64,000 nucleotides of DNA from an uncultured Thermoguttaceae bacterium (GTDB lineage: Bacteria; Planctomycetota; Planctomycetia; Pirellulales; Thermoguttaceae), in assembly GCA_937951625.1 (NCBI GenBank), contig CALFBP010000004.1:1-64000 (forward strand), written 5' to 3'. Both the position numbers and the translations under genes were made by a program. Below the pieces are notes generated by a model, which searched no databases, was not told the DNA's origin, and was given only the letters and a program-made list of their open reading frames with translations. Below, piece after piece: positions 29,549-49,063 of this stretch. Numbering within the stretch: the first letter of the stretch is position 1; every line of letters begins with the position of its first letter.

Positions 29549-29602
29549 TTCACCGTGCGGGTACCTTAACCCACGGACTTCGGAATCGCTCAGTTCCCCG
29601 CG

Positions 29603-29625
29603 GCGACAATTGTGTGTCGCATTTT
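29603..29625 (+). terminator. Rho-independent terminator candidate
   Basis: A perfect six-base stem GCGACA (29603-29608) / TGTCGC (29615-29620) with loop ATTGTG is followed by ATTTT. It lies 55 bases after the hydrolase stop, in the gap between convergent genes. Confidence 0.45.
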
Positions 29626-29701
29626 GCCATCGGCCGAGTCTCTCAAAGAAATGGGAGTTTGTCGCACCGTCCAAGCGATGGACGGCAATGCCAAAGACTT
29701 C

Positions 29702-30433
29702 CTACCCATTGGCCGCGGAAGCTTCGTCGGTTCGGACAAGGAACAAGGACCGGGCCCAATTCTGGGCGGGGTCGGTGCGAAGGGCTTCCTCAATGTGACG
29801 CTGGACCACATCGTGCCCGGCGGCGGCAAACGTTTGGCTCATTTTAGCGAGCACCACGGAATCATGAAGAAGTTGGATCTCCCGTCGCGGACTCAAGGGG
29901 TCTTTCCAATAATCCTTGATCAGGGTAGCGATCGCCGCGATTGCAGGCTCGTCCAAGGCGGCGCGGGCGAGAATCTCGCGGCAGGCCTCTAATCCAGCGG
30001 CGCCTGGAGCGGCTGCAAGACGATCGCTCACTTCCAGCAGCAGGGCGGCCGAAAGAAAGGTCACGGGCGGGAGGGGCGCGGCGGGCGCCAGTTCCCTGGC
30101 GTGCTGGAACACCAACAGGGCTTGGTGGATAAGGTCGGGCTTGTCGGGCATGGCTTCCTCTAGGGCCTCGATCAGCTTGCCCGCGAGAGCCGGGGCGCCC
30201 TGTCCAATCGCCGCGATCCGAGATCGCGACAAGCCGGTGCAGGACTCGGCCTGGTCGCACCACGTGGCGCAATCGAGGGCCACGCGCGGATTGTTCAAAC
30301 GGTAGGAACACCGACTGCAACGACGCGAGACTTCGTCACGGAAGAACTCGACCTTCGCCCCGCATCTCATGCAGGGAACCTCGAACACCCGTTCGCCCTG
30401 CCAATACGCACTATCTTGCCCAGGACATTTCAT
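29702..30433 (-). CDS. Zinc-ribbon protein with degenerate HD domain, divergent from the CODH operon
   Basis: The 243-residue protein starts at the second of two ATG codons (30433), 8 bases after GGAG, matching the MKCPGQD N terminus I recall for a family common in sulfate reducers and Wood-Ljungdahl bacteria. The N-terminal 50 residues hold paired cysteines (PCMRCGA, RRCSRCSYR) and then LDCATWCDQAESC, suggesting one zinc or FeS site. In that family an HD phosphohydrolase domain follows. Here the AYLHDIG-like motif reads AALLLEVSD, so the metal-binding His-Asp is lost, while a later LLHDSVVLAKM keeps the shape of the terminal motif. It is probably not an active hydrolase. It reads away from cooC across a 466-base gap. 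Confidence 0.65.
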   Translation of the reverse strand: MKCPGQDSAYWQGERVFEVPCMRCGAKVEFFRDEVSRRCSRCSYRLNNPRVALDCATWCDQAESCTGLSRSRIAAIGQGAPALAGKLIEALEEAMPDKPDLIHQALLVFQHARELAPAAPLPPVTFLSAALLLEVSDRLAAAPGAAGLEACREILARAALDEPAIAAIATLIKDYWKDPLSPRREIQLLHDSVVLAKMSQTFAAAGHDVVQRHIEEALRTDPAQNWARSLFLVRTDEASAANG

Positions 30434-30899
30434 CATAGGACTCCGAACGAGACGTCAATTTGGGCGGCCTAAGGGGTTAGATCGTGCGCGGGACAATCGT
30501 GCTGAGTGCGAACATCGCTCAAGCTCACACATGGTCGAGGCATTCGCCTGGTTTTCATAAATTAACGATAACAAAAATGTCACAAACTCGCGAGATTCCA
30601 CTTTTGGGAGCGAATGCTGGTTTTCAAGACAGCAGCGATTCACTAGAATCTTGTAAGCGGAGCGAGTGCGAACTCGGCGATGCCCATCAAGCTCAGTGAC
30701 GCCCGAGTCGTACCGGATCCGCAGCCGCAACGACTGAGGTTTCTGGGTAGGCTGAGCGACCGTGGCTTAGGAGATTGAGGTCTCAAATTCCACCGGTTTG
30801 CCATTTCAGGGAACGCCAGAGCTTTTCGGGCAGCAGGTTCGTGGGGACCATGAGGGTCCTGATGCCTGAAACAGCAGGATACGTAGTGGGAGTTATCCT
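30434..30899. other. 466-base divergent regulatory region upstream of the CODH/ACS operon
   Basis: No coding sequence was recognised. It contains an AT-rich block (30550-30585), the promoter candidate at 30621-30649 and a hairpin overlapping the cooC start. I looked for CRP/FNR-type (TGTGA or TTGAT palindromes), CooA-type, RcoM-type and sigma-54 (GG-N10-GC) elements and for a cobalamin riboswitch box, and found none that is convincing. Confidence 0.5.
30621..30649 (+). promoter_or_regulatory. Candidate promoter of the CODH/ACS operon
   Basis: TTTTCA (30621-30626), a 17-base spacer and TAGAAT (30644-30649). The -10 box matches five of six bases and the -35 box four of six. Transcription would begin near 30656, leaving a leader of about 245 bases before cooC. 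Confidence 0.4.
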
Positions 30900-30900
30900 G
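30875..30900 (+). promoter_or_regulatory. Hairpin enclosing the cooC ribosome binding site
   Basis: CAGGATA (30875-30881) and TATCCTG (30894-30900) form a perfect seven-base inverted repeat. The 12-base loop contains the GGGAG ribosome binding site (30888-30892), and the last stem base is the first base of the GTG start codon. Folding would restrict or present the translation start of the first gene of the operon. Confidence 0.45.
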
Positions 30901-31688
30901 TGAAGCTGGCCATCGTGGGCAAGGGGGGCGTGGGTAAGACAACGCTTGCCGCCGCTCTTGCCCAACATTTCGCGCGATTCTCGCCGCCGGTCATTGCGAT
31001 CGACGCGGACCCCGACGGTAATCTGGGCAGTGCCTTAGGGGTGCCCGGACACCAGCTTCCTGAGCCGATTGCTGGGATGCGCGATCTGATCTTGGAGCGG
31101 ACGGGGGCCAAGGATCAGCCGGGCGGGTTGTACTCGCTGAATCCGAAAGTGGACGATCTGCCGGATCGTTTTTCTGTCGAAGTTGGCGGGGTGCGGTTGT
31201 TGGTCCTGGGAACCGTGGAATGGGGCGGCAAGGGCTGCATGTGCCCCGAAGGGGCGGTTTTGAAAGCCTTGCTCCAGCACCTCTTGCTCCGTGTGCCGGA
31301 ACACGTGATCCTGGATATGGAGGCCGGATTGGAGCATTTGGGCCGAGCTTCGGCCCGAGGGGTCGATGCCATGATTTCCGTGGTCGAGCCGGGAATGAGA
31401 AGTGTGCAGACCGCCGCCCGAGTCCGCGCTTTAGCCAGCGAAATCGGCATCCGGCGTACGTTCGTGGTGGCGAACAAAATAAGGGATGCTCACGAGCGGG
31501 AAGTGCTTCAACAGGCCCTTGGCGATCAACCCATCATTGGGACGATTCCTTATTGTGATCGCTTGGTTCGGGCCGATCTGGATGGAATGCCGGTGCTTTT
31601 GGAGGACGACGTCCTCGCCAGCGCGGTCCGCTTGATCGGCGATTTTTTGGCAAAGCAGTTGGACTCCAAAGGAGAGGGACATGACTGA
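30900..31688 (+). CDS. cooC: CODH nickel-insertion ATPase CooC
   Basis: The 262-residue protein starts at GTG 30900, seven bases after GGGAG. It is a MinD-like P-loop ATPase with the deviant Walker A KGGVGKTT (8-15), IDADPDGNL, and the metal-binding Cys113-x-Cys115 motif (KGCMCPEG). The last feature is diagnostic of CooC, which dimerises, binds Ni(II) through the CxC pair and hydrolyses ATP to load nickel into the CODH C-cluster. It is the first gene of the operon and overlaps cooS by eight bases, so the maturation factor is translated together with its target. Confidence 0.94.
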   Translation: MKLAIVGKGGVGKTTLAAALAQHFARFSPPVIAIDADPDGNLGSALGVPGHQLPEPIAGMRDLILERTGAKDQPGGLYSLNPKVDDLPDRFSVEVGGVRLLVLGTVEWGGKGCMCPEGAVLKALLQHLLLRVPEHVILDMEAGLEHLGRASARGVDAMISVVEPGMRSVQTAARVRALASEIGIRRTFVVANKIRDAHEREVLQQALGDQPIIGTIPYCDRLVRADLDGMPVLLEDDVLASAVRLIGDFLAKQLDSKGEGHD

Positions 31689-33666
31689 GCGTCAATGGCG
31701 TTCGATCGATATTGCGACGAACGAGATCCGGGAGTACACGAAGAAGGCCGGCATCGAAACGGCCTGGGACCGGCTGGAGGCTCAGGAGCCTCAGTGCGGC
31801 TTCGGCAAGTTGGGGATCTGCTGCCGGAACTGCCTGATGGGTCCTTGCCGGATCGACCCCTTCGGCGATGGGGCCCGCGAGGGCATCTGCGGGGCAACGG
31901 CTGATACGATCGTGGCCCGAAACTTGTTGAAGCACATCTGCGCCGGCTCGGCGGCCCACAGCGATCACGGCCGCGAGGTGGTCCACGCTTTGCTGTTGGC
32001 GGCGGAGGGCAAGTCGGATGTCTACAAGATCCGTGGCCGCGAGAAGCTGCATGCCTTAGCCGATGAATTTGGAATCCCTCGTGACGGACGAAGCGACGAA
32101 GCGATCGCCAAGGACCTTGGTGCGTTGTTCCTTGCGGAGTTCGGACGGCAGGAGGGCACGTTGCTCAATCTTGCCCGCGCCCCGGAACAGCAAAGGAAAA
32201 ATTGGGAAGCCGTCGGCGCCAGCCCGCGGGGGATCGATCGCGAGATTGTGACAGCTCTGCACAGCACCACGGTCGGCGTGGACAACGACCCGGAACACAT
32301 CATCATGACGTGTGCGCGGGCTGCGCTGGCCGATGGTTGGGGAGGGTCGATGATCGCCAGCGACGTCTCCGACGTGCTCTTCGGCGAGCCCCATCCCCTT
32401 CGGAGCCGCGTGAATCTCGGGGTCCTCAAGGAGGACGAGGTGAACATCCTCGTGCATGGCCACGAGCCCACGCTTTCCGACGTGATCGTCGCCGCGGCGA
32501 GCGATCCTGAGTTGCTCGCCTTGGCCCGTTCCAAGGGGGCCAAGGGAATCAACCTTGCTGGCATTTGCTGCACGGCGAACGAAATCCTGATGCGGCACGG
32601 CGTCCCCATCGCAGGGAATTTCCTCCAACAAGAACTTGCCGTGGCGACCGGCGCCGTGGACGTGATGTTGATCGACGTGCAGTGCGTCTTTCCCGCCCTG
32701 GCCGAACTGCAAAACTGTTTCCACACGAAAGTCGTTTCCACCAGTCCCAAAGCGAAGTTCCCAGGGGCCGTCCATATCGAGTTCCACGAGGACGCAGCCT
32801 ACGAAACGGCCAAGGAAATCATCCGTTTGGCGATCGAGAACTATCCCAACCGGGACCGCGCCAAGGTGAAGATACCGCGGGTAGAAGAAAAGCTCGTGGC
32901 GGGGTTCACCACGGAAGTCGTTCACAAAATTCTCGGCGGGCGGTATCGTCCCAGCTACCGACCGCTCAACGATGGGATTCAGTCGGGGCGGCTCCGTGGC
33001 GTGGCTGGGGTGGTCGGCTGTAACAATCCGCGGTTCCCGGTCGATAACTGCCACGTTGAACTCGTCAAAGAGCTGATTCGCAACGACGTGCTCGTCGTTC
33101 AAACCGGGTGCAGCGCGATCGCCTGCTCCAAGGCGGGCCTCCTCACGCCGGAGGCAGCCTCGAAATTCGCCGGCAAAGGCCTCCAGGAAATTTGCCGCGC
33201 GGTGGGCATCCCGCCTGTGCTTCACGTCGGTTCTTGCGTGGACAACTCGCGCATCCTTACCGCTTGTGCGGAAATGGTGAAGGAAGGCGGGATCGGCACC
33301 TCGTTCGACAAGCTGCCGGTGGCCGGCGCCGCTCCGGAGTGGATGAGCGAAAAGGCCATTGCCATCGGCATGTACTTCGTGGCCAGTGGCATCTTCGTCG
33401 TCATCGGCCAACCCCTGCCCGTCCAGGGAAGCCCGATGGTCACTGAGTTCTTGACGAAGACCATGGAAAAGCACTTCGGGGCCACCTGGGCTTTCGAGGC
33501 CGATCCCATCAAGGCCGCCCACTTGATGATCGACCACATCGACCTGAAGCGTCGCGAGTTGGGGCTCCCGGGGCCGATGTACGACGTGCCCTATGCTCCG
33601 AAGACGGTGGACCAAGAGTCCGCTGCCCGCTCCGTTGTCTTGGAGGCCGTGGGAGCGGGAAGCTAA
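31681..33666 (+). CDS. cooS: Anaerobic Ni-Fe carbon monoxide dehydrogenase catalytic subunit
   Basis: The 661-residue protein interconverts CO and CO2 using ferredoxin. All metal ligands appear present. Cys39 and Cys47 are for cluster D. Cys48, Cys51, Cys56 and Cys70 are for cluster B, in CGFGKLGICCRNCLMGPCR. C-cluster ligands are in HGHEPT (His), AGICCTANE, DVQCVFPAL, VGCNNPRF, QTGCSAIAC and HVGSCVDNS. The proton-path histidines His93 and His96 (AHSDHG) and the lysine in SEKAIAIG are also present. Numbering of the N-terminal cysteines matches C. hydrogenoformans CODH-II. With AcsB in the same operon it should form the CODH/ACS complex (AcsA role). It starts at ATG 31681 and is preceded by cooC. 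Confidence 0.97.
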   Translation: MTERQWRSIDIATNEIREYTKKAGIETAWDRLEAQEPQCGFGKLGICCRNCLMGPCRIDPFGDGAREGICGATADTIVARNLLKHICAGSAAHSDHGREVVHALLLAAEGKSDVYKIRGREKLHALADEFGIPRDGRSDEAIAKDLGALFLAEFGRQEGTLLNLARAPEQQRKNWEAVGASPRGIDREIVTALHSTTVGVDNDPEHIIMTCARAALADGWGGSMIASDVSDVLFGEPHPLRSRVNLGVLKEDEVNILVHGHEPTLSDVIVAAASDPELLALARSKGAKGINLAGICCTANEILMRHGVPIAGNFLQQELAVATGAVDVMLIDVQCVFPALAELQNCFHTKVVSTSPKAKFPGAVHIEFHEDAAYETAKEIIRLAIENYPNRDRAKVKIPRVEEKLVAGFTTEVVHKILGGRYRPSYRPLNDGIQSGRLRGVAGVVGCNNPRFPVDNCHVELVKELIRNDVLVVQTGCSAIACSKAGLLTPEAASKFAGKGLQEICRAVGIPPVLHVGSCVDNSRILTACAEMVKEGGIGTSFDKLPVAGAAPEWMSEKAIAIGMYFVASGIFVVIGQPLPVQGSPMVTEFLTKTMEKHFGATWAFEADPIKAAHLMIDHIDLKRRELGLPGPMYDVPYAPKTVDQESAARSVVLEAVGAGS

Positions 33667-34302: not shown

Positions 34303-34362
34303 GAGGGCCAATTTCGAATTGCAGGAAAGCGGGCGGTCGCCTTGTCAGCCGGAGGGCCGCAA

Positions 34363-34644
34363 ATGCCCGTCACCGTGACCGTTTGCGTGGGAAGCTCATG
34401 CCATGTTCGCGGATCCCGGGCCGTCCTCAAGCGATTCGCGGAAGTTTTGCAAGCCGAGGGGCTTAGCGAGGATGTCGCGTTGGTGGGATCGTTCTGTCTG
34501 GAACGCTGTTCGGAGGGAGTAAACTGGAAATTCAACGAAGAGAACTTTTCCAGCGCGACTGTGGACGACGCAGAAAAAACGTTGCGTGAAAAGCTCCTTG
34601 AAGCGAAGGAACGAGACCGGACAACGGCGGAGGAACTTGCATGA
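34363..34644 (+). CDS. Small thioredoxin-fold 2Fe-2S protein
   Basis: The 93-residue protein begins at ATG 34363, six bases after GGAGGG; an upstream in-frame TTG at 34342 lacks such a site. The Cys pattern VCVGSSCHVRG plus GSFCLERCSEG matches the thioredoxin-like 2Fe-2S fold of NuoE/HydC C-terminal domains, without their N-terminal helical part. Free-standing proteins of this type occur in HydABC-like hydrogenase operons. It probably shuttles electrons or modulates the diaphorase. Its stop overlaps the next start (ATGA). Confidence 0.82.
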   Translation: MPVTVTVCVGSSCHVRGSRAVLKRFAEVLQAEGLSEDVALVGSFCLERCSEGVNWKFNEENFSSATVDDAEKTLREKLLEAKERDRTTAEELA

Positions 34645-35144
34645 TACGGCAGGAAGCGTTGGACTTGTACTCCATCCTCGAACATACGCCCAACGGCATC
34701 CTGTTGGTCGATGGCGAGGCCCGGATCCGCTTCGTCAACCCCGCCTTCCGCCGGATGTTTGCCACCGGAGATGGGGACTTGACAGGCCGCAAGGCATCGG
34801 AGTTCCTCAATTCAGATTGTTTTGAGCGGGCCATTGCCAGTCAGGGCCAGGTTTCGGTCCGGGGCCATGTGCCTCCCCTTGGGGTACATTACCGGGCAGG
34901 GATTTTCGCTATCCAGGGGAGCGACCGCTACTGCGGGATATTCGTCGATACCACGGAGGAGGAGCGGGCCCGGGCTGAACTCTTGCAAGTCAAACGCGAA
35001 ACCTTGGCCCGTGCCCAGGAAGTCATTCGTCGCCAAATGCAAACCGCGCAGGAGATCGCTGGTCTTCTGGGCGAAACGACGGCCGAAACCAAAGTCCTCT
35101 TGGCCAAGCTCACCGACCTGTTCCATCTGGAGCGGACGGCGTGA
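34641..35144 (+). CDS. PAS-domain protein
   Basis: The 167-residue protein has one PAS domain (about 7-110, beginning LYSILEHTPNGILLVDGEAR and containing FVNPAFRRMF) and a C-terminal helical extension (residues 115-165) without kinase motifs. PAS domains bind a cofactor or small ligand or sense redox state. The ligand here is unknown; no obvious Cys or His cluster points to haem. It is translationally coupled at both ends by four-base overlaps, to the 2Fe-2S gene before it (ATGA) and the SpoIIE phosphatase after it (GTGA). This suggests a sensor-effector pair acting within the operon. Confidence 0.82.
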   Translation: MIRQEALDLYSILEHTPNGILLVDGEARIRFVNPAFRRMFATGDGDLTGRKASEFLNSDCFERAIASQGQVSVRGHVPPLGVHYRAGIFAIQGSDRYCGIFVDTTEEERARAELLQVKRETLARAQEVIRRQMQTAQEIAGLLGETTAETKVLLAKLTDLFHLERTA

Positions 35145-36292
35145 AGGTCTACTATGAGTTTGGACTGAAGCAAATCAACAAACGGGGAGAGGAGTTGTGC
35201 GGCGACAGCGTCGAGTTCACCTTGAAGCCAGACACGGCCACGCTCGTTCTATCCGACGGGCTGGGCAGCGGCGTCAAGGCGAGCATCCTCTCCACGCTCA
35301 CCACCCGCATCGCCATCCGAATGCTCGACGGCGGTTTGCCGATGGAGGAAGTCTTTCGAACCGTGTCCGAGACCCTGCCCATGTGCCGGGTGCGGAAGAT
35401 CGCCTACAGTACGTTCAGCATCGGCCAGTTGTCGTCCGAGGGATCGGCCCAGTTCGTGGTGTACGACAATCCGCCGCCGTTGCTCATCCGGGGCGCCAAG
35501 GCCCAGCCCTTGGATGCCGACGAACACGACGTGGGCGGGAAACACGTTTTCCACTACGGTTTCCAACTCCAATGCGGCGACTGGCTCGTGCTGGTTTCGG
35601 ATGGGGTATTGAATGCGGGCATTGGTGGGGCCTACCCCTTGGGGTGGGGCTGGGAGGCCCTGGTCGCCTATGTGGAGAACCACGTCCACGATGCCCTTTC
35701 CGCCGAGGGGTTGGCGGCGAAGCTCGCCTGTGTGGTCGAGCACCTGTACGAGGGACCGCCGGGCGACGACGTGAGCATCGCGGTGGTCAAGGTCCGTCGC
35801 AAGCGGATGTTGACCATGTTGATCGGTCCGCCGGTGGAGAAGCAGAGCGACGCGCAGGTGGTCGCGGCCTTGATGTCGGCACAAGGACGCCGCGTGGTCT
35901 GCGGTGGGACGACCGCCAGGATCGTCGCCCGATTCCTTGGTTGCCCGATCGACGTCGATTTGGAAACAGGGACCGAGTCCGTCCCGCCCATCGGCAGGAT
36001 CCAGGGGATCGACCTTGTGACCGAGGGTACCTTGACGGTCACCAAGGCCCTGGAGATCATCCGCGAGGATGCCCCCGGCGAGCCTTGGAAGTTCAAGCCC
36101 GACGGGGCCAGCCGACTGGTGGACTTGCTCTACGAGGCGGATGCGGTGAAAGTGATCGTGGGCCGGGCCATGAATCCGGCTCATCAAAACCCCAAGCTGC
36201 CGAGAAACCTCAGTCTGAAGACCCAGGTCATCGAAGTCCTCGCCGAGCTACTGCGACGTAAAGGCAAGGAAGTGGAAATCGAGTACTATTGA
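35141..36292 (+). CDS. SpoIIE/PP2C-type phosphatase with unknown C-terminal domain
   Basis: The 383-residue protein starts at GTG 35141, overlapping the PAS gene. Residues 1-225 are a SpoIIE-like PP2C domain with the metal-binding segments LVLSDGLGSGVKAS and VLVSDGVLNAG, and GDDVSIAVV at its end. Residues 226-383 form a second domain (LTMLIGPPVEK, RVVCGGTTARIVARFLG, RPGGASRLVDLLYEAD-like stretch) that I do not recognise. Proteins of this layout sit beside HydABC-type hydrogenase genes in other anaerobes. Its phosphoprotein substrate is unknown. No anti-sigma or STAS protein is encoded nearby. Confidence 0.82.
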   Translation: MKVYYEFGLKQINKRGEELCGDSVEFTLKPDTATLVLSDGLGSGVKASILSTLTTRIAIRMLDGGLPMEEVFRTVSETLPMCRVRKIAYSTFSIGQLSSEGSAQFVVYDNPPPLLIRGAKAQPLDADEHDVGGKHVFHYGFQLQCGDWLVLVSDGVLNAGIGGAYPLGWGWEALVAYVENHVHDALSAEGLAAKLACVVEHLYEGPPGDDVSIAVVKVRRKRMLTMLIGPPVEKQSDAQVVAALMSAQGRRVVCGGTTARIVARFLGCPIDVDLETGTESVPPIGRIQGIDLVTEGTLTVTKALEIIREDAPGEPWKFKPDGASRLVDLLYEADAVKVIVGRAMNPAHQNPKLPRNLSLKTQVIEVLAELLRRKGKEVEIEYY

Positions 36293-36299
36293 GAACTTG

Positions 36300-39669: not shown

Positions 39670-39722
39670 ATCGGTATCACGATGGTCATCGCGATCCAAA
39701 CGTTCACGATTCGGAGGCATTG

Positions 39723-41930
39723 ATGTCCAAGCAGGTATTCACGCAGGTCATTCGGGGAGCCCACGAATGGGTGAAAAGGGCTGAACAAGAGCTGGACGAG
39801 GCGATTGCCAAGCACGGAACCGATAAGCCGGTGGGCTGGCCGGGACAAACGGCTTACTACCTGCCGATGTCCTACGCCTTGATGGGGCTCGAGGCGAAGA
39901 CCATTGGCGACTTGCGGGCCCAAGTCCAGCACGCTCGGGAGTTGCTCAAACCCATCCCCTCCGACGAACTCTGGCTCCCCTACCTTGGCGACGGGTTGGA
40001 CGCCGGGGCTGCAACCATGCTTGCCCAGGAAGTGTTGGTTGCCCTGCGGACCGTCAATGGATTCACCATGCCGCCCGGCTGGCAAGGGTTCATCTCCGAC
40101 ACGATCATGCGCGAATTGGGCATCCAATTGGTCGACGGCCGCATGCCTGGGTTCGCGCTGCTGCTCGGTCCCGCCCCCACCACCGAAATCGCGGTCCACA
40201 CCGTGCGCGAGCTGCAAAAGCGCAGCATCCTCGTGTTCCTCTGCGCGAATCGCGGGGGTAAAACCGCCCGCGAACAGATGTACGAGGGCGGGGTGCTGAA
40301 AGAGGATGCTCCGCTCAAGGAGTGTTGGGATCAATATGTGGTGCCTGTGGGACCCGACACCCTGGACGGCATCTATGTGCTCAATTGGTCGATCCGCAGC
40401 GCGTTGACGTTCGGGAACCATAAGCGCGGCGAATGGCGCAAGTGCCTGGATTATACGAAGCGCCGCATCCATGCCTTCGGCATCGCCTTCGGCGAGATTC
40501 CCGATGATTGGTACGCCATGGGCGCCGGCGCCATCCTTTTGGGCTATCCGGTAATCTCGGACTCGAAGACCACGCCGGAGATCCGCCCGACCGGCGTCAC
40601 CGTGCGCGAGGAATTGGTCGTCGAGACGGATTACGAAAAGCTCGTGCCCACCTGCATCGACACGCGGGCGGTGAAGGTCAAGGTCGAGAAGATCGATATT
40701 CCCGTGGGCTATGCCGCGGCCTTCGAGGGCGAACGCGTGCGCAAGGAGGACATGCAAGTCCAGTTCGGTTATAAATATTCCGACGCCGTGGAATACGTCC
40801 ACATGGTCGACGGCAGTACGATCCAGGACGGCGAGATCGTGCTGGACGGACCCGACATCGATACCGTCCCCGAGGGCGGGGCCATGCCTTTATCGATCGA
40901 GGTGCTCGTGGCGGGACGCAAAATGCACCGTGACTTCGAGGGCATTCTCGAGCGACAAATCCATCGTTGGACCAGCCACGCCATGGGCTTCATGCACACC
41001 GGCCAGCGCGATCAGATCTGGTGCCGCATCAGCAAGAAGGCCTACCAGGCTGGGTTCCGCCTGAAGCATCTGGGAACGATTCTCCACGCCAAAATGCACG
41101 ACGAATACGGCGGCATCGTGGACAAGGTGGCTGTCCACATTTCCACAAAACCGGAAGTCGTCAAGGCCAAAGTGGCCGAGGCCCGGGAAGCCTTCCGGAT
41201 TCGTGACGACCGCATCGCCGGCCTGACCGATGAATCGGTGGACACGTTCTACAGTTGCACGATCTGCCAGAGCTACGCCCCCGACCACGTTTGCGTGATC
41301 ACGCCGCAGCGGCTGGGATTGTGCGGGGCGTATAACTGGCTGGACGGGCGGGCGAACTACGAAATCAATCCCACTGGTCCCAATCAGCCTATCGCCAAAG
41401 GTCGCACCATCGACGCGCAGAAAGGCGAGTGGGAAGGGGTCAACAAGTTCGTCTATCAATATTCGAACCGCAAGATCGAACGCTTCTGCGCTTACAGCCT
41501 GCTGGAGGCTCCGATGACCAGTTGCGGCTGTTTCGAGTGCATTGTCGCGCCGTTGCCCCTGGCCAATGGTGTGATGGTGGTCAATCGGGAATACTCGGGC
41601 ACGACTCCGTCGGGCATGACGTTTGGCGATCTTGCTTCGGTGACTGGCGGGGGGGCCCAAACCCCGGGTTTCGTCGGCGTGGGACGGCTTTATCTCTCCA
41701 GCCCGAAATTCCTCGCCGCCGACGGCGGTATTCGGCGGATCGTTTGGATGCCCAAGGCCCTCAAGGAAGCAATCCGTGAACGGCTCCAGAAAGAGGCCGA
41801 TCGGATCGGCGAACCTGACCTTCTGGATAAAATCGCGACCGAGGACGACGCCTTGACCGAAGAAGAGGTGGCCGCTTTTGCGGAGAGCAAGGGCCACCCG
41901 GCCTTGGCCATGGCGCCGCTGATCGGATAA
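39723..41930 (+). CDS. acsB: CO-methylating acetyl-CoA synthase
   Basis: The 735-residue enzyme joins CO, a methyl group and CoA into acetyl-CoA at the A-cluster. The 4Fe-4S ligands are Cys512, Cys515, Cys524 and Cys534 (SCTICQSYAPDHVC, GLCGAYNW). The distal nickel site is Cys601-Gly-Cys603 (TSCGCFEC). Spacing matches the Moorella enzyme exactly (3, 9, 10 and 67 residues). The full N-terminal domain of about 310 residues that docks to CODH is present, so this is the bacterial, not the archaeal, form. ATG 39723 follows GGAGG; an in-frame TTG precedes it. Confidence 0.97.
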   Translation: MSKQVFTQVIRGAHEWVKRAEQELDEAIAKHGTDKPVGWPGQTAYYLPMSYALMGLEAKTIGDLRAQVQHARELLKPIPSDELWLPYLGDGLDAGAATMLAQEVLVALRTVNGFTMPPGWQGFISDTIMRELGIQLVDGRMPGFALLLGPAPTTEIAVHTVRELQKRSILVFLCANRGGKTAREQMYEGGVLKEDAPLKECWDQYVVPVGPDTLDGIYVLNWSIRSALTFGNHKRGEWRKCLDYTKRRIHAFGIAFGEIPDDWYAMGAGAILLGYPVISDSKTTPEIRPTGVTVREELVVETDYEKLVPTCIDTRAVKVKVEKIDIPVGYAAAFEGERVRKEDMQVQFGYKYSDAVEYVHMVDGSTIQDGEIVLDGPDIDTVPEGGAMPLSIEVLVAGRKMHRDFEGILERQIHRWTSHAMGFMHTGQRDQIWCRISKKAYQAGFRLKHLGTILHAKMHDEYGGIVDKVAVHISTKPEVVKAKVAEAREAFRIRDDRIAGLTDESVDTFYSCTICQSYAPDHVCVITPQRLGLCGAYNWLDGRANYEINPTGPNQPIAKGRTIDAQKGEWEGVNKFVYQYSNRKIERFCAYSLLEAPMTSCGCFECIVAPLPLANGVMVVNREYSGTTPSGMTFGDLASVTGGGAQTPGFVGVGRLYLSSPKFLAADGGIRRIVWMPKALKEAIRERLQKEADRIGEPDLLDKIATEDDALTEEEVAAFAESKGHPALAMAPLIG

Positions 41931-42011
41931 CGCTAGACAACGAAACATGAGTCGCTCCACCTGGAGATTTCCAACCACGACGCCCCAACGACCGCTGACG
42001 AGGGACGAACC

Positions 42012-43352
42012 ATGGCTCTCACCGGGATCGAAATCTACAAACACTTGCCCAAGACGAACTGCAAAGATTGCGGGTTTCCCACCTGCCTCGCCTTCGCCAT
42101 GAAGGTGGCGGTGAAACAAGTGGGGCTCGACAAGTGTCCGCACATTACCCCCGAGGCGTCCGCCGCACTGGAGTCGGCCTCGCGCCCGCCGATTCAATTG
42201 GTGACCATCGGCGTCGGGGAGAACGAGATCAAGATCGGCAACGAGACTCAGCTCTACCGCCACGAAGAGAAGTTCCATCGTCCTACCGCCATCGCCGTGC
42301 GAATCTCCGATCGTGCCGAGGATGCCGCCATCGCCGAGCAGGCCAAGGCCATCGGCACGATGGTGTTGGAGCGGGTGGGGCTGCGATTCAAGGTGAACCT
42401 GATCGCGGTGGACAATGAATCGGGCGACGCGGCCCGGTTCGAGAAGGCGGTGAAACTGGTCGCCGAGAATTCGGGTATGGCCTGCGTCTTGATGTCGGCC
42501 AAGGCCGATCATCTCCGCCGCGCGGCGGCGGCAGTTTCTGGACAGCGCCCGTTGTTGTACATCACCGACCCGGCTCAGGCCGAAACAGCCGCCCGAGTCG
42601 CCAAGGATGAAAAGTGCCCCTTGGCGGTCCGAGCCGACGGCGTGGAAGCCTTGGCGGAGGTGACGGGCAAGATTCAGGCCGCCGGCGTGGAGGAGATCGT
42701 GCTGGATCCGGGCACGCGGACCGTGAAGGCCACGGTCGAGGCCCTCACCATGATCCGTCGCTTGGCCTTGAAGAACTTTCGGCCTTTGGGGTATCCTGCT
42801 CTCGCCGTGACCGCGAGCTTGGACCCCACGATGCAGGCCGCCGAGGCCAGTATCTACGTGGCGAAATACGCGGGCATCGTGATCACCGACGCCCGCGAAC
42901 CCTGGCAGTTGCTACCCATTTTCACCACGCGGCAAGACATCTACACGGACCCGCAAAAGCCCGTGGCCGTGGAACCGAAGCTCTATTCGGTGGGCGCCGT
43001 CGGTCCCGATTCTCCTCTGTTGGTGACTACCAACTTTTCGCTCAGTTACTATTCGGTGGAAGGCGAAGTCGAGGCGAGCCGCGTGCCGGCTTACATTTTG
43101 GCCGTGGATACCGAGGGCACCTCCGTGCTGACGGCCTGGGCGTCGGACAAGTTCAACGCCGATACGATCACCAAGGCCATGAAAAAGGCGGACGTCGATT
43201 CCAAGATCCCGCATAAGACGCTTGTCCTGCCGGGATTTGTAGCTGTATTGTCGGCTGGGGTCGAGGACGAATCGGGCTGGAAGGTCCAAATCGGGCCCAA
43301 GGAAGCCTCCGGCATTCCCACTTATTTGAAAAAGCAGCAATGGAAAGCGTGA
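42012..43352 (+). CDS. acsC: Corrinoid iron-sulfur protein large subunit
   Basis: The 446-residue subunit starts at ATG 42012 after GAGGG. The N-terminal 4Fe-4S motif has Cys17, Cys20, Cys25 and Cys42 (NCKDCGFPTCLAF, KCPH), which is the cluster used to reactivate Co(II). A TIM-barrel domain and a C-terminal cobalamin-binding domain follow (ending in PTYLKKQQWKA). With AcsD it carries the methyl group on cobalt from methyl-tetrahydrofolate to AcsB. It lies 81 bases after acsB. Confidence 0.96.
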   Translation: MALTGIEIYKHLPKTNCKDCGFPTCLAFAMKVAVKQVGLDKCPHITPEASAALESASRPPIQLVTIGVGENEIKIGNETQLYRHEEKFHRPTAIAVRISDRAEDAAIAEQAKAIGTMVLERVGLRFKVNLIAVDNESGDAARFEKAVKLVAENSGMACVLMSAKADHLRRAAAAVSGQRPLLYITDPAQAETAARVAKDEKCPLAVRADGVEALAEVTGKIQAAGVEEIVLDPGTRTVKATVEALTMIRRLALKNFRPLGYPALAVTASLDPTMQAAEASIYVAKYAGIVITDAREPWQLLPIFTTRQDIYTDPQKPVAVEPKLYSVGAVGPDSPLLVTTNFSLSYYSVEGEVEASRVPAYILAVDTEGTSVLTAWASDKFNADTITKAMKKADVDSKIPHKTLVLPGFVAVLSAGVEDESGWKVQIGPKEASGIPTYLKKQQWKA

Positions 43353-43396
43353 TTGTCGGTTCAATTCCCGTGGCGACCGTGCGGTGGGGCCAGCGG

Positions 43397-43448
43397 GGCG
43401 CCGTCCCACCTAAGCGGACCATTCTTCCCGGTGGGATTGTACGGCGCC
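43397..43448 (+). repeat. Strong hairpin between acsC and acsV
   Basis: GGCGCCGT plus CCCACC (43397-43410) pairs perfectly with GGTGGG (43430-43435) and ACGGCGCC (43441-43448), with a five-base bulge and a 19-base loop. It lies 45 bases after acsC and 31 bases before the acsV start. No T tract follows. Confidence 0.5.
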
Positions 43449-43478
43449 GGTCCCAAATCATGGCCTTGACCTCCAACC

Positions 43479-45506
43479 GTGTCTAGTTTTCGCATCCATT
43501 TTCTTCCTGACGATCAGGAAATTTCTATCAACGCCGGCCAAACCCTGCTGGAGGCCGCGCGCCGCGCCAATGTTTATGTCGGTGCGATTTGCGGCGGGGA
43601 GGGGACCTGTGGCAAGTGTCGCCTTATCGTGCGCGAGGGAGAGGTCGAGGGCGAATCGACTGAATTCTTGACCCGCGAAGAGATCCGCCGTGGTTATGTC
43701 TTGGCCTGCCAGGTCGTTCCGCGAAGCGACTTGGTGGTCGAGGTTCCGCCGGAGTCCCGCCTGAGCGGGTACGTGGGCATCGGAGGAGAAGACAGCGAGC
43801 GTTTCCGCGATTTCACGCTTCGTGAAACGGCGGCGCCTGCCCCGCATCTCGACCCCGTGGTGAAGAAAGTCTTCCTTACCCTTGTGGAACCAACCCTCGA
43901 CGATCCCACGGCGGATCAAGAGCGATTGCTCGGGGCCCTGGCGAGGGATCGGCAGACTCCGCTTCAGATGGGCTTGAAGGTCAGCCGGCAGTTGCCGTGC
44001 GTGCTCCGTAAGGTGGTCCGCGAGCGGGGTAGGGTTCAATGGAGCTGGAACGGCCGGGTGACGGCCACCGTCGGGGTCCGCGGCCCGGTGCTCGAAGTTC
44101 TTTCGGTGGAGCCAGGCAACACGTCGGGGCGGAACTTCGGCCTGGCCTTGGACATTGGCACCACGACCGTCGTCGCCCATCTCGTGGACCTGGTCCGCGG
44201 AACGACGCGCGAGGCTGCCGCCAAGTACAACTCCCAACTTACCTTCGGCGCGGACGTGATCGGGCGGATCAACCACGCCCGGCAGCCGCACGGCGGCGAG
44301 GACCTTCAGCGGGCGATCGTCAAGGACATCGACACCTTGATTCAGGACTTGGAACAACGTTCCCAGATCGGCCGTGGCGAAATCCAGTGCATCGTGGCCG
44401 CCGGAAACACGGCGATGCTGCACTTCCTCTTGGGTTTGGAACCGGACTTGATCCGCCTCTCGCCCTTCACGCCTGCGGCCGCCTGCCCTCCCCCCGTGCG
44501 CGCCGCCGAGATCGGCATCCGCGTCAATCCCCGCGCCATCCTCTATACCCTGCCGATGATCGGCAGTTTCGTGGGCGGCGACGTGACGGCGGGAATCGTG
44601 GCCTCGGGCATGTATCTGGCGGACGAGGTCTCGCTGTTGATCGACCTGGGAACTAACGGCGAAATCGTACTCGGCAACCGGGATTTCCTGGTTGCCTGCG
44701 CCGCGTCGGCGGGTCCGGCGTTCGAGGGTGGGTCGGTGGCCTGCGGCATGCGCGCTGCCTGTGGCGCCATCGACACGGTACGGATTTCCCCGAACGGCGA
44801 CCGCGTGTCGGTGAGCACGATCGACGGGGGCCGGGCCGTGGGGATTTGCGGGACGGGGATGATCGACGCCTTGGCCCAATTGTTTCTCGCCGGTCTAGTT
44901 GATCGCAGCGGCCGTTTCCAAGTGGATCGCTGCCCCTCCCGATTCCGACCTTCGTCCGAGGACGATCGGCCCGAGTTCATCCTCGTTCCGCCAGCGGAGG
45001 CCGCCAATCCCCGCGGTGTTGTCATCACCCAAGCCGATGTGGAGAACCTCATCCGCACCAAGGGCGCGATCTACGCGGCGGCGGCGTGCCTGGTCAATTC
45101 CGTCGGCCTTTCCTTCGCCGACATTCAGCACCTATATATCGCCGGGGCCTTCGGCAACAAACTCGATGTGGCCAACTGCGTGACGATCGGCCTGCTGCCC
45201 GACTTGCCGAGAGATCGCGTCCATTTCATCGGCAACAGCTCGGTCGCGGGCGCGAAGCTGGCCATGTTAAACGAACAGACCATGGCCGAGATGTACCGCA
45301 TCCGGGAACGGATTACTTACGAGGAACTGATGGTCAATCCGCGATACATGGACGATTTTCTCTCCGCCTGTTTCCTTCCGCATACCGACCTTAGCCAGTT
45401 TCCGTCCGTGCCTGATCCGGCCAGCGGAGCCGCCTGCCCGGACGTCGCGGCGGCGAAGTCCATGGCCTCGGACCATGCAGCTTGCAAGAGGGGAGGTGCG
45501 TCGTGA
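43479..45506 (+). CDS. acsV: Reductive activator of the corrinoid protein (RACo/AcsV, ASKHA ATPase)
   Basis: The 675-residue protein starts at GTG 43479. The N-terminal 2Fe-2S plant-type ferredoxin domain has Cys38, Cys44, Cys47 and Cys77. A linker region is followed by the ASKHA ATPase domain (DUF4445) with LALDIGTTTVVAHLVD, LLIDLGTNGEIVLG, GICGTGMIDALAQ and IAGAFGNKLD. It uses ATP to return inactive Co(II)-corrinoid to Co(I), which drives AcsCD back into the cycle. Its stop codon overlaps the next gene's GTG start (GTGA). Confidence 0.93.
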   Translation: MSSFRIHFLPDDQEISINAGQTLLEAARRANVYVGAICGGEGTCGKCRLIVREGEVEGESTEFLTREEIRRGYVLACQVVPRSDLVVEVPPESRLSGYVGIGGEDSERFRDFTLRETAAPAPHLDPVVKKVFLTLVEPTLDDPTADQERLLGALARDRQTPLQMGLKVSRQLPCVLRKVVRERGRVQWSWNGRVTATVGVRGPVLEVLSVEPGNTSGRNFGLALDIGTTTVVAHLVDLVRGTTREAAAKYNSQLTFGADVIGRINHARQPHGGEDLQRAIVKDIDTLIQDLEQRSQIGRGEIQCIVAAGNTAMLHFLLGLEPDLIRLSPFTPAAACPPPVRAAEIGIRVNPRAILYTLPMIGSFVGGDVTAGIVASGMYLADEVSLLIDLGTNGEIVLGNRDFLVACAASAGPAFEGGSVACGMRAACGAIDTVRISPNGDRVSVSTIDGGRAVGICGTGMIDALAQLFLAGLVDRSGRFQVDRCPSRFRPSSEDDRPEFILVPPAEAANPRGVVITQADVENLIRTKGAIYAAAACLVNSVGLSFADIQHLYIAGAFGNKLDVANCVTIGLLPDLPRDRVHFIGNSSVAGAKLAMLNEQTMAEMYRIRERITYEELMVNPRYMDDFLSACFLPHTDLSQFPSVPDPASGAACPDVAAAKSMASDHAACKRGGAS

Positions 45507-46297
45507 CGCTTTCCATCGCGGTTGCTGGAAAGGGGGGTATCGGAAAAACGACCCTGAGCGCCTTGTTGGTGCGTTGCTTCCGCGACTTGGGCGCCGGCCC
45601 GGTCCTGGCCGTGGACGCCGACCCCAACTCGAATCTGGCCGAGGCCTTGGGCGTCGAGCCGGGCAAACCGCTGGCGGAAATCCGTGAGGAAGGCTCGTCG
45701 CCGGAGGGCTCGCCCCCCAGCGGGATCGGACGCGTCCGTGTCGTGGGCGACGAACTCCAAAAGGCCATCGCCGAGGCCGATGGCTTCGACCTGATCACCA
45801 TGGGCCGGCCCGAGGGACCACGCTGCTACTGCGCGGTAAACAACCTCCTGCGAAACGCTTTGGACAACCTCGCCAAGAACTATCGTACCGTCGTGGTGGA
45901 CAACGAAGCCGGGATGGAGCACCTCTCGCGCCGCACGACCAACGACGTGGACGCCTTGATCGTGATGATGAATCCCACGATGCCGTCGCTTCGCGCGGCG
46001 CGACGCATCCTCGATCTTTCCCGTGAATTGCCTATCCGCGTCCGTCAGCGGATGACGCTAGTCAACCGCGTCGGCTCCCAGGGACTGCCGAAGGAGGTCC
46101 AGCAGGAGCTGCTGCTTTTGGGCGGCGAGCGGCTTCCCGATGTCCCTCAGGACGACACGGTGGAGGAAGCCGGCGCGGTGGGGCGGGATGTGATGTCGCT
46201 TCCGGCCGATGCCCCGGCACTCGTCGCCATGCGTGGCGTGGTGAAGACCCTTGAGAAATTGCGGTCGTGGGGGGATGATGTGGGCCGAAAGGGCTGA
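45503..46297 (+). CDS. acsF: Second CooC-type ATPase, probable ACS maturation factor AcsF
   Basis: GTG 45503 is chosen because it follows GGGGAGG and overlaps the acsV stop by four bases; the 264-residue protein then begins MTLSIAVAGKGGIGKTT. It has the MinD-like Walker A, VDADPNSNL, and a metal-binding Cys108-x-Cys110 (PRCYCAVNN). This differs from CMC in the first CooC, and the two proteins differ across their length. Its place among acs genes suggests nickel delivery to AcsB, by analogy with AcsF. The division of labour with the first CooC is inference. Confidence 0.88.
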   Translation: MTLSIAVAGKGGIGKTTLSALLVRCFRDLGAGPVLAVDADPNSNLAEALGVEPGKPLAEIREEGSSPEGSPPSGIGRVRVVGDELQKAIAEADGFDLITMGRPEGPRCYCAVNNLLRNALDNLAKNYRTVVVDNEAGMEHLSRRTTNDVDALIVMMNPTMPSLRAARRILDLSRELPIRVRQRMTLVNRVGSQGLPKEVQQELLLLGGERLPDVPQDDTVEEAGAVGRDVMSLPADAPALVAMRGVVKTLEKLRSWGDDVGRKG

Positions 46298-46359
46298 CAC
46301 TTCGGTAGCTGCATGGCATGGTTCCGCCACGCCCAACCAGGGATGACATGAAAGCTGAG

Positions 46360-46379
46360 CGCGGCGGCCGATTGCCGCG
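46360..46379 (+). repeat. Small hairpin between acsF and acsD
   Basis: CGCGGC (46360-46365) and GCCGCG (46374-46379) form a perfect six-base stem around an eight-base loop in the 135-base gap. The acsD ribosome binding site (GAGGAGG) lies about 45 bases downstream, outside the stem. Confidence 0.35.
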
Positions 46380-46432
46380 ATGGCCAGAATTCGATCGACA
46401 GACCATAGCAACCTACCTCGAGGAGGACTTCC

Positions 46433-47395
46433 ATGGCAATTCCTGACGTGAAGCAGAAATGGTCGGGCCGCGTCAACACGGTGACCATCGGGGCGACCAA
46501 AGCCGAAGGCGGAACGCGAGGGCGGACGGTGACCATCGGCGGCGAGACGGGCATCCCCTTCTTGAGCTTCGACGGCGAAACGCCCCATCCGCCGGCGATC
46601 GCCTTGGACGTGCTGGACAAGGCCCCGCTCGATTGGCCTGAACCGCTCCGTGAGATTTACGGCGACGTCTGGTCGGACCCCGCCGCCTGGGCCCGCCGCG
46701 CCAAGGAGCTTGGCGCGGATTTGATCAACCTCCGCCTCGTGAGCACACATCCCGAGGAGGGCGACCGGTCGCCGGAGGAAGCCGCCGACACCGTTCGCGC
46801 CGTGCTCGAGGCGGTCGATCTGCCTTTGGTGATCTGGGGCTGCGATGTCCCGGCCAAGGACCAGCGAGTCATGCCGAAGGTGGCCGAAGCGGCCCAAGGC
46901 GAAAATTGTTTGCTTGGCGCCTGTACCGAAACGGAATATCGCACCTTGGCCGCCGCGGCGCAAGCCTATCGCCACAAGCTGATTGCGCTAGCCCCCTGCG
47001 ACATCAACAAGCAGAAGCAGGTCAACATCCTGATCAGCGACACCGGATTCCCGCTCACCGATCTGGTGCTCTATCCCACCACGGCTTCGCTCGGATACGG
47101 TATGGAATACGTGTATTCGATTCTCGAGCGAGGTCGGCTCGCGGCCCTGGCAGGCGATCGCCTGATGGCCCAGCCTGTCATTCTTGACGTCGGTTATGAA
47201 GCCTGGCGTTCGAAGGAGGCGCGGATTGGCGACGAAGCGGCCGCCGCCTGGGGGCCGCTCCACGTGCGCGGCGCCGCGTGGGAAGCCGTCACGGCCGCCG
47301 ACCTGCTCCAAGGTGGCGCGGACCTCCTGATTCTTCGCCATATCAAGGCCGTGGAAGTCGTGCGAAGCCTGATCCGCGACCTGCTGGCGGCGTAG
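46433..47395 (+). CDS. acsD: Corrinoid iron-sulfur protein small subunit
   Basis: The 320-residue subunit starts at ATG 46433 behind a strong GAGGAGG site. It is a TIM-barrel protein of the CdhD/AcsD family, with N-terminal VNTVTIGATKAEGGTRGR, VIWGCDVPAKDQRVMPK, LIALAPCDINKQKQVNI and TASLGYGMEYVYS. It pairs with AcsC and helps cap the corrinoid. It is separated from acsC by acsV and acsF, an order also seen in clostridial acs clusters. Confidence 0.95.
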   Translation: MAIPDVKQKWSGRVNTVTIGATKAEGGTRGRTVTIGGETGIPFLSFDGETPHPPAIALDVLDKAPLDWPEPLREIYGDVWSDPAAWARRAKELGADLINLRLVSTHPEEGDRSPEEAADTVRAVLEAVDLPLVIWGCDVPAKDQRVMPKVAEAAQGENCLLGACTETEYRTLAAAAQAYRHKLIALAPCDINKQKQVNILISDTGFPLTDLVLYPTTASLGYGMEYVYSILERGRLAALAGDRLMAQPVILDVGYEAWRSKEARIGDEAAAAWGPLHVRGAAWEAVTAADLLQGGADLLILRHIKAVEVVRSLIRDLLAA

Positions 47396-47461
47396 CCTTC
47401 AGTCCGTAGCGGTTCCAAGGAAACCATTCTCAGCATCTTTGCGACGGGGAGGAACTTAGCG

Positions 47462-48277
47462 ATGATTATCTTTGGCGAACGCATCAACGGCATGTATCGC
47501 GACGTGCGCACGGCGATTGTGGAACGGGACAAAAGCGTCATCCAAAGGCTTGCCAAGGCGCAGCTCGACGGTGGGGCCGACGTCATGGATTTGAACGTCG
47601 GCCCGGCCAAAGGCGACGCCGTGGAACACTTCGTCTGGCTCGCCCAGACCGTCCACGAGATCACGGACAAACCGCTCTCGCTGGACAGCGCCAAGGCCGA
47701 CCTTCTGGTCCAGGTGGTGCCGCGCGTGGCCGAGGCGTTGCCGGGCACGAAACTCATCATCAATTCATGCACCGCCGCCCCCGACTACATGGCCAAACTC
47801 CTGCCCCTCGCCGCCAAGTACGGCACGAGCATCATCGGGTTGACGATGGACCAGCGGGGCGTGCCGGGCAACGTGGAGCAGCGTGTGGAGTGCGGCGCGG
47901 CGTTCCTTATGGGGGCCGTTGAGGCGGGCATTCCCATTGAGGACATCTACATCGACCCCATCATCCTCCCCGTCAACGTCGCCCATAAACAGCAGGTCCA
48001 CTCCATCGAGGCGATCCGCCAGCTCGCCCTGGTCAACGATCCCCCGCCCAAGTTCATCATCGGCTTGTCTAACGTCAGCCAGAAGTGCCTGTTGAACCAC
48101 CTGTTGAACCGGACCTATCTGGTGATGGCCCTCGCCGCCGGATTGGACGCCGCCATCCTCGACGCCGCCGACGCCGAACTCATCGAGGCCATGATTGCCG
48201 CGGAGGTCCTGTTGGGCAAACAGCTCTATAGCGACGAATTCGTCAAGGCATGGAAGATGCAAAAGGGGCTTGCATAG
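47462..48277 (+). CDS. acsE: Methyl-tetrahydrofolate:corrinoid iron-sulfur protein methyltransferase
   Basis: The 271-residue protein is a pterin-binding TIM barrel. The pterin ligands Asp75 (LSLDSAK), Asn101 (INSC), Asp165 (YIDPIILP) and Asn204 (GLSNVSQ) align with those of the Moorella methyltransferase. It transfers the methyl group from methyl-H4folate to Co(I) of AcsCD, linking the methyl and carbonyl branches. ATG 47462 follows GGGGAGG. The folate enzymes that make its substrate are not encoded in this window. Confidence 0.95.
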   Translation: MIIFGERINGMYRDVRTAIVERDKSVIQRLAKAQLDGGADVMDLNVGPAKGDAVEHFVWLAQTVHEITDKPLSLDSAKADLLVQVVPRVAEALPGTKLIINSCTAAPDYMAKLLPLAAKYGTSIIGLTMDQRGVPGNVEQRVECGAAFLMGAVEAGIPIEDIYIDPIILPVNVAHKQQVHSIEAIRQLALVNDPPPKFIIGLSNVSQKCLLNHLLNRTYLVMALAAGLDAAILDAADAELIEAMIAAEVLLGKQLYSDEFVKAWKMQKGLA

Positions 48278-48373
48278 CGTAAAAGACGAAGTGAATCATG
48301 ATCTCCGCACAAAGGCCGCCGGTTGTGACCTTGTGGCGATTCGCGGCGATCGATTCGCGTGTTGGTTCCGGCC

Positions 48374-49063
48374 ATGAACTTCGAATCGCCGAGCCCGGGC
48401 TTTCCGAAGCCTCCGCCGCAGGAGAACTATCGCGTCGCGGTCCAGCGGGCCGTCGAAGCCTTGCGCCCGCAGACGCCCGAGCAGTTGGCATGGCTCGGCG
48501 CCCAGGCGTGTGGTGCCCTGTGGCGGCTACCCGTGCTCGACGATGTGTTCGAGGTCGATCTGAGCAGTGGCCGGGTGGTGACGTCGAACGGGGTTCCAGT
48601 CCAGGTCGCCTGGCAGGTGTTGGCCCTGCACTACCTTGCGGTGGCCCTCCGGCCCGAGCCGCGACCGCCCTCGATCACCTTTGCCGATCTGGCGTCCGGC
48701 CGCGGCTACGCCAGCGTGTATGAGGCCCGGGTGCTACGGCGGTTGTGCGCCACGGCGGGACGCCAACGGGATTCGCTCTGCCGCGCGGCCGAGGGGCTTT
48801 GCGCCCGACCCGCTCAAGGCGGCGACGCGGCCTATCACTTTGACGTCTTCCCACGCGTAGCCGTTCAGTTGATCTGGCACGGCCCCGACGAGGAGTTTCC
48901 CCCCTCGGCCACGATCCTTTTGCCCGACAATATCGAACAGTGGTTTTGCACCGAGGACATCGTGGTCCTCTGCGAAAGCCTCGTGGCCCGACTCGGCGGT
49001 CGCACCTTCAGCGGCGAAAAGGCGGCGGAGCCGTCTTCCAAAGCGTCGCGGGGCGAAGAATAA
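48374..49063 (+). CDS. DUF3786 family protein
   Basis: The 229-residue soluble protein starts at ATG 48374, 96 bases after acsE. Characteristic segments are EQLAWLGAQACGALWR, ITFADLASGRGYASVYEARV and LIWHGPDEEFPPSATILLPD. DUF3786 proteins accompany corrinoid, CODH/ACS or formate dehydrogenase genes in many anaerobes, but their role is unknown. Its repeated linkage and last place in the acs genes suggest a maturation or accessory role. It has two Cys residues late in the chain (WFCTEDIVVLCE) that could matter. Confidence 0.8.
   Translation: MNFESPSPGFPKPPPQENYRVAVQRAVEALRPQTPEQLAWLGAQACGALWRLPVLDDVFEVDLSSGRVVTSNGVPVQVAWQVLALHYLAVALRPEPRPPSITFADLASGRGYASVYEARVLRRLCATAGRQRDSLCRAAEGLCARPAQGGDAAYHFDVFPRVAVQLIWHGPDEEFPPSATILLPDNIEQWFCTEDIVVLCESLVARLGGRTFSGEKAAEPSSKASRGEE

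Follow-up and report, generated by a model that had tools for sequence, protein, structure and literature searches.

An eight-cysteine protein with a degenerate HD domain, encoded beside cooC, as a candidate CODH/ACS accessory protein in a Thermoguttaceae bacterium

We analyzed a 64,000-nucleotide stretch of DNA from an uncultured Thermoguttaceae bacterium (contig CALFBP010000004.1, hereafter the window) and propose, with moderate confidence, that a gene encoded there together with cooC and cooS specifies a dedicated accessory protein of CODH/ACS, drawn from a family that elsewhere accompanies HCP. This protein combines an N-terminal module of eight cysteines with a C-terminal HD domain whose metal ligands have been replaced (Table 1). 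The proposal draws on homology, ligand loss, a contrast in selection between the two parts of the protein, and links at the levels of gene order and of whole genomes.

Table 1. Features of the target gene and of the CODH/ACS locus in the window.
Feature	Position	Strand	Remarks
Target ORF, eight-cysteine CPGQD module plus degenerate HD domain	29702..30436	-	244 aa plus stop
Eight-cysteine module	30224..30436	-	C4, C22, C25, C40, C43, C56, C60, C66
Degenerate HD-fold domain, residues 80-244	29705..30199	-	Hexad H/HD/HH/D replaced by Q/LE/YW/V; from profile alignments and model
Divergent intergenic region, target/cooC	30437..30899	.	463 bases
cooC-like gene, CbiA/MinD family ATPase, head-to-head with target	30900..31688	+	Name from context
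cooS, Ni-CODH catalytic subunit	31681..33666	+	TIGR01702, 656 bits
acsB (CdhC/ACS_CODH_B_C), acsC (CdhD), RACo-type activator, second CooC-like ATPase, acsD (CdhD), pterin-binding AcsE-like	39720..48277	+	Rest of CODH/ACS operon
DUF3786 (PF12654) protein, operon end	48359..49063	+	

The protein starts with MMKCPGQD, and the gene end at 30433 given in the original prediction corresponds to the second Met. The gene is present as a single copy in its 4.59-Mb genome, and protein-level matches were found in 7 of 60 genomes (E<=1e-3, the window's own genome counted). When the window protein was scanned as a single sequence, Pfam returned nothing above cut-off (the sub-threshold matches were a zinc ribbon at E=0.0055, another zinc ribbon, and HTH_NDX at E=0.11) and no CbiA/MinD ATPase (CooC family) match, and neither NCBIfam nor PHROGs gave a match. 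Simple Pfam membership, as a zinc ribbon or an HD protein, was rejected on this basis, and the HD part is thus invisible to single-sequence scans.

To place the C-terminal part, we turned to relatives and profiles. A scan of named genome contigs yielded 347 relatives, of which the best 80 were kept; L049, located on the same contig as L007/L162, was dropped, leaving 79 loci. Relative L007 (residues 2-239), which itself exceeds the Pfam HD cut-off (E=2.6e-10), aligns with window residues 1-233 (E=8e-23). More specifically, window residues 80-244 alone matched a profile of 12 intact relatives with an hhalign probability of 96.5% (E=7.5e-10), and a profile of 10 degenerate C-terminal parts, the window's among them, matched the 12 intact ones at 99.6% (E=6.7e-25). 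This degenerate-only profile also recovered 2pq7, titled predicted HD hydrolase (E=1.1e-6), followed by Lin1889, BH2835, a HD-family hydrolase and YedJ (E=0.0003-0.0015), among which we take Lin1889 and YedJ to be HD proteins. The alignments place the window's AALLLEVS on AAYLHDIG (H to L, D to E), and the remaining ligand changes are H to Q, HH to YW, and D to V; which aligned residues are the HD ligands, and that the hexad ends with the second Asp of the DAD motif, are our assumptions. Consequently, the six ligand positions read QLEYWV in the window versus HHDHHD in 76 of the 79 loci (best 80 of 347, less one), slight departures among the best 80 being found in L071/L090, L124, and L136. No intact HD motif was seen at other positions within the 244 aa. 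Sequence profiles therefore assign this part to the HD superfamily (PF01966) by fold, and its metal ligands are missing, which bears out the original claim of a decayed HD domain with replaced ligands (ALLLEVSD). Given the lost ligands, the window protein is predicted to lack phosphohydrolase activity.

The operon divergent from the target gene runs cooC-cooS-...-acsB-acsC-RACo-cooC2-acsD-acsE-DUF3786, with acs and coo gene names assigned from Pfam matches and gene order. Between cooS and a NuoF-like gene (34342-36824) lie genes for 2Fe-2S thioredoxin-like, PAS, SpoIIE-type phosphatase, and NuoE-like proteins, a block also seen behind cooS in relative L131.

Within the window's taxonomic family, carriers were detected in 12 of 119 genomes, and 10 of these copies, distributed across 8 genera, are degenerate. 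The other two, G016 and G674 (HD part alone), both have an intact hexad; the G016 copy, which adjoins HCP, FrdX-like and CRP genes on a contig titled Nealsonbacteria, may be foreign or mis-binned. The degenerate rows occupy long branches in the tree, and their clade may reflect a single loss or several. Seven of the ten degenerate copies (G000, G002, G007, G010, G018, G597, and G602) lie head-to-head with a cooC-like gene, so the position beside cooC that had been noted in the window is a recurrent one; cooS then follows in five of the seven, the contig of G002 ending within cooC and cooS of G007 being on another contig. Three copies (G028, G609, and G610) are not beside cooC. Directly behind the gene, on the same strand, DUF3786 was found in five of the ten copies, whereas the window's DUF3786 instead closes the operon. 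Neither HCP nor FrdX-like genes occurred within 4 kb of any of the ten, with contig ends cutting one flank in L129 and L161.

Whole-genome content followed the same lines. A CODH match was obtained in 9 of the 10 degenerate genomes (partial and below cut-off in G610; the exception, G002, has a broken contig), and DUF3786 was present in 9 of 10 (G610 being without it). Across the 119 family genomes, Fisher tests that ignore kinship gave p values of about 5e-9 for window-class CODH (cut at 587 bits, plus the partial G610) and 2e-9 for DUF3786. In contrast, HCP presence does not single out degenerate carriers (9/10 versus 69/109, p=0.08). Window-class CODH occurs in 15 family genomes, 6 of which are without a degenerate copy, indicating that the target is not essential for CODH.

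Likewise, among 392 genomes of the phylum, the cysteine module was present in 53 and DUF3786 in 46, with 42 genomes from 13 taxonomic families carrying both; thus, the module was detected in 42 of 46 DUF3786 genomes versus 11 of 346 others. CODH, checked in 80 of the 392 genomes, was matched in 48 of 53 module genomes (17 of 19 families) versus 1 of 23 module-free controls, which were chosen by handle order. These counts are not independent, since 23 of the 53 module genomes come from family f67 and 6 from f116. In f67 and f116, all 29 module genomes have DUF3786 and 27 have CODH, with the genes often far apart. In four genomes assembled as single contigs (G325, G445, G474, and G483), more than 200 kb separate the module from both CODH and DUF3786. 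Five module genomes are without CODH, namely, G249 and G496, where the module is in HCP loci, G551, which is 61% complete and where the module adjoins a FrdX-like gene, G498, and G574.

The relatives with an intact hexad keep different company. Judged by title, most of the best 80 of the 347 relatives come from Desulfo-, Syntropho- or (Delta)proteobacteria, and the taxonomy table of the 79 loci (best 80 less L049) lists 43 Thermodesulfobacteriota and 22 Myxococcota, many of the latter titled Deltaproteobacteria. Within 4 kb, 41 of these 79 loci carry HCP, 60 carry a FrdX-like gene, and 64 carry either, an association that comes from loci of one scan (best 80 of 347). The HCP of one member was assigned with Pfam Prismane and TIGR01703, and that of the others by profile; HCP shares Pfam PF03063 with CODH (CooS). 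'FrdX-like' is our label for a ~250-aa 4Fe-4S protein, after Rodionov et al. 2005 (PMC1274295), where hcp and frdX are given as the main HcpR targets and the text does not use the term 'HD domain'. At L053, L058, and L063, two family matches per locus (possible tandem duplicates) were seen with no HCP profile match within 4 kb, and the neighbors, judged by eye, look like translation and isoprenoid genes. The original prediction that the family recurs near Wood-Ljungdahl genes therefore applies to the window operon, to the seven copies beside cooC, and to the CODH-bearing module genomes; it does not extend to the 79 relatives (best 80 of 347, less one), which are found mainly in HCP/FrdX-like loci.

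The head-to-head arrangement of the seven degenerate copies is typical of divergently transcribed regulators, and the original prediction had linked the protein to the divergent CODH promoter. The target could accordingly sense redox state, NO or CO and control the cooC-cooS promoter, directly or via a partner, with the HD part as a protein-interaction surface. Two sigma-70-like matches were found in 29550-31000, versus 0.2 expected. Five operator motifs (two CooA forms, HcpR, CRP, and HcpR2) were searched in the seven head-to-head regions, i.e., 35 tests, and no CooA, CRP or HcpR-like site was common to the seven, nor did the window's 463-base region contain a known regulator motif above shuffles. 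Individual matches comprised a strong CRP-like one confined to L129 (reached by 0/100 simple shuffles), and HcpR-like 8-of-10 matches in L158 and L159 (reached by 9 and 10 of 100 shuffles, respectively). In 29 of the 79 loci (best 80 of 347, less L049), a CRP/FNR gene is found no more than 4 kb away, usually on the opposite strand, which would suit a regulatory link; however, the target homologue is mostly co-directional with HCP in the HCP loci among the best 80, and regulation there is more likely exerted by the separate CRP/FNR protein. The target itself has no DNA-binding domain above cut-off, HTH_NDX being sub-threshold. We thus consider a sensor unlikely: gene order is what points to regulation of the divergent promoter, and the shared operator that would have backed the predicted connection did not emerge from the seven regions.

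An AlphaFold2 model of the window protein reached a pLDDT of 87.7, and its best structural matches were HD hydrolases (3djb, Z 13.7, rmsd 5.4, 154 aligned). As helical models reach Z values of ~13 by chance and the input alignment held intact members, this fold search adds little beyond the sequence evidence. With Foldseek, the window model had no match at E<=0.001 (2pq7 on top at E=0.11, probability 1.00), and a model of an intact member matched 2pq7 at 5.8e-5. The predicted retention of the fold, matches that include YpgQ with ADP, and a FQHAxEL-like stretch in most of the ten degenerate members would agree with a nucleotide-responsive switch, in which the degenerate HD pocket binds nucleotide without hydrolysis, as would the purifying selection on the HD part described below. 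Yet the six ligand columns vary freely among degenerate members, and they have not kept the EGPPIA stretch seen in intact ones, such that no common pocket is evident; we regard a switch as improbable.

The CPG motif and all eight cysteines are present in the target, and none of the eight varies among 52 aligned HD-type members or among 25 aligned modules of mixed architecture, i.e., fused to HD, to a FrdX-like protein or to rubrerythrin, or stand-alone (about 75-110 aa). One such stand-alone module (L165) is part of a Wood-Ljungdahl operon, where it is flanked by acsE and DUF3786. Other architectures include modules fused to a FrdX-like 4Fe-4S protein (L140:6714-7949 and L147:1896-2888) and a module fused to rubrerythrin plus rubredoxin, as assigned by Pfam (L146:1624-2433), in a locus with Rrf2, FrdX-like, and HCP genes and a flavodiiron-like neighbor named by eye. 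Conversely, L171-L177 encode the HD part without the cysteine head, the hexad being intact in 7 of 7 loci; the L171 gene adjoins HCP and an Rrf2 regulator. The conserved, mobile element is therefore the cysteine head, found with prismane-family enzymes and redox proteins, and HD is one of several attachments. Among solved structures, the module's best matches were zinc ribbons, those in subunit P of RNA polymerase (E=0.0012) and in ribosomal eS27 (0.0018); these matches span mainly the central CxxC...CxxC and hence do not identify the other four cysteines.

Selection differs between the two parts. In two close degenerate pairs, dN/dS was 0.06 and 0.07 for the head and 0.34 and 0.40 for the HD part, versus 0.006-0.10 (head) and 0.05-0.15 (HD part) in four intact pairs (simple Nei-Gojobori estimates; dS was close to 1 or higher in some of the comparisons). 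Among pairs whose heads were 50-60% identical, identity of the HD parts averaged 30% in degenerate pairs (n=29) and 48% in intact pairs (n=638). Selection is thus strong on the cysteine module, and for the HD part it is relaxed yet still purifying, not free. A plain electron-transfer or metal-carrier module with the HD part as a decaying relic of no role would fit the existence of modules alone or fused to FrdX-like protein or rubrerythrin and the shortening of the C-terminal part to 115 residues in G018 and G602, but it has little probability in view of HD dN/dS values below 1 in two pairs and the retention of the HD part in 10 genomes and 8 genera.

Under the accessory-protein reading that we prefer, the eight-cysteine head, judging from its cysteines, would bind metal: one zinc very likely in the CxxC...CxxC ribbon, and zinc, iron or Fe-S at a putative second site held by C4, C56, C60, and C66. 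The protein may serve prismane-fold enzymes by assembling or repairing their Fe-S or Ni-Fe-S clusters or by delivering electrons to them, probably alongside CooC and DUF3786. The ancestral HD domain would have been a phosphohydrolase that, in the window's lineage, lost its metal ligands and may persist as a helical docking body. Because conservation centers on the eight cysteines, the HD body more likely plays a secondary part than carries the main function, and the scaffolding role originally suggested is plausible. To our knowledge, HCP holds no nickel, and because the module pairs with this nickel-free enzyme, a nickel-specific role is unlikely.

A broader version can be put forward more tentatively, as one that we find possible rather than probable, namely, that the eight-cysteine CPG module is a general factor assembling or repairing clusters in prismane-fold enzymes (HCP, HCP-like CODH, and Ni-CODH/ACS), with DUF3786 on CODH, and that the fused HD hydrolase works where the partner is HCP and lost its activity on the move to CODH/ACS. 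Two loci outside the window's family, L050 and L137, adjoin CODHs nearest to 7b7q (685 and 683 bits; next chain, 406 and 381), which we take to be ChCODH-V of clade D. The hexad is intact in L050 and not in L137; with L050 beside a CODH, adjacency to CODH alone does not mean a dead HD domain. ChCODH-V is described as a clade D, CO-inactive, HCP-like enzyme in the article of Bohm and Land (eLife 2026, PMC13056359), where the co-occurrence of HCP and CODH is also reported as high, for a reason not known; the words hydrolase, zinc, HD domain, and hypothetical are absent from its main text. If true, the general cluster-factor proposal would explain part of this co-occurrence. Knowledge of how the unusual clusters of Ni-CODH and HCP are built and protected is incomplete, and a family located beside both enzymes offers a direct experimental handle. 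In the open-licence literature (titles and abstract starts), we found no paper describing the CPGQD eight-cysteine/HD family, and DUF3786, the second uncharacterised companion, is named in one paper of that literature. Furthermore, the case documents the passage of an HD hydrolase to a pseudo-enzyme together with changed gene neighbors.

Several known systems can be set beside the target. The closest are the uncharacterised CPGQD-HD proteins of HCP/FrdX-like loci, which are full-length homologues sharing the eight-cysteine head; they differ by their intact hexad (in all but three of the 79 loci, best 80 of 347 less one) and by HCP/FrdX-like neighbors in place of CooC, CooS, and DUF3786. The HD superfamily phosphohydrolases (PF01966; YpgQ, YedJ, and 2pq7) show kinship in fold and sequence with residues 80-244, whereas the target has all six ligand positions replaced, carries the additional eight-cysteine head, and has no Pfam HD match. 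Among CODHs, the closest solved chains to the window enzyme are 6t7j (697 bits), 6ytt, 9fzy, 6vwy, and 6b6v; 7b7q, nearest to the CODHs beside L050 and L137, is by contrast its weakest match among those listed (305 bits). Finally, the CODH accessory proteins CooC, CooJ, and CooT (CooC compared by Pfam only) resemble the target in their cooC neighborhood and in the service to CODH proposed here, but the target's CPGQD head also occurs beside HCP.
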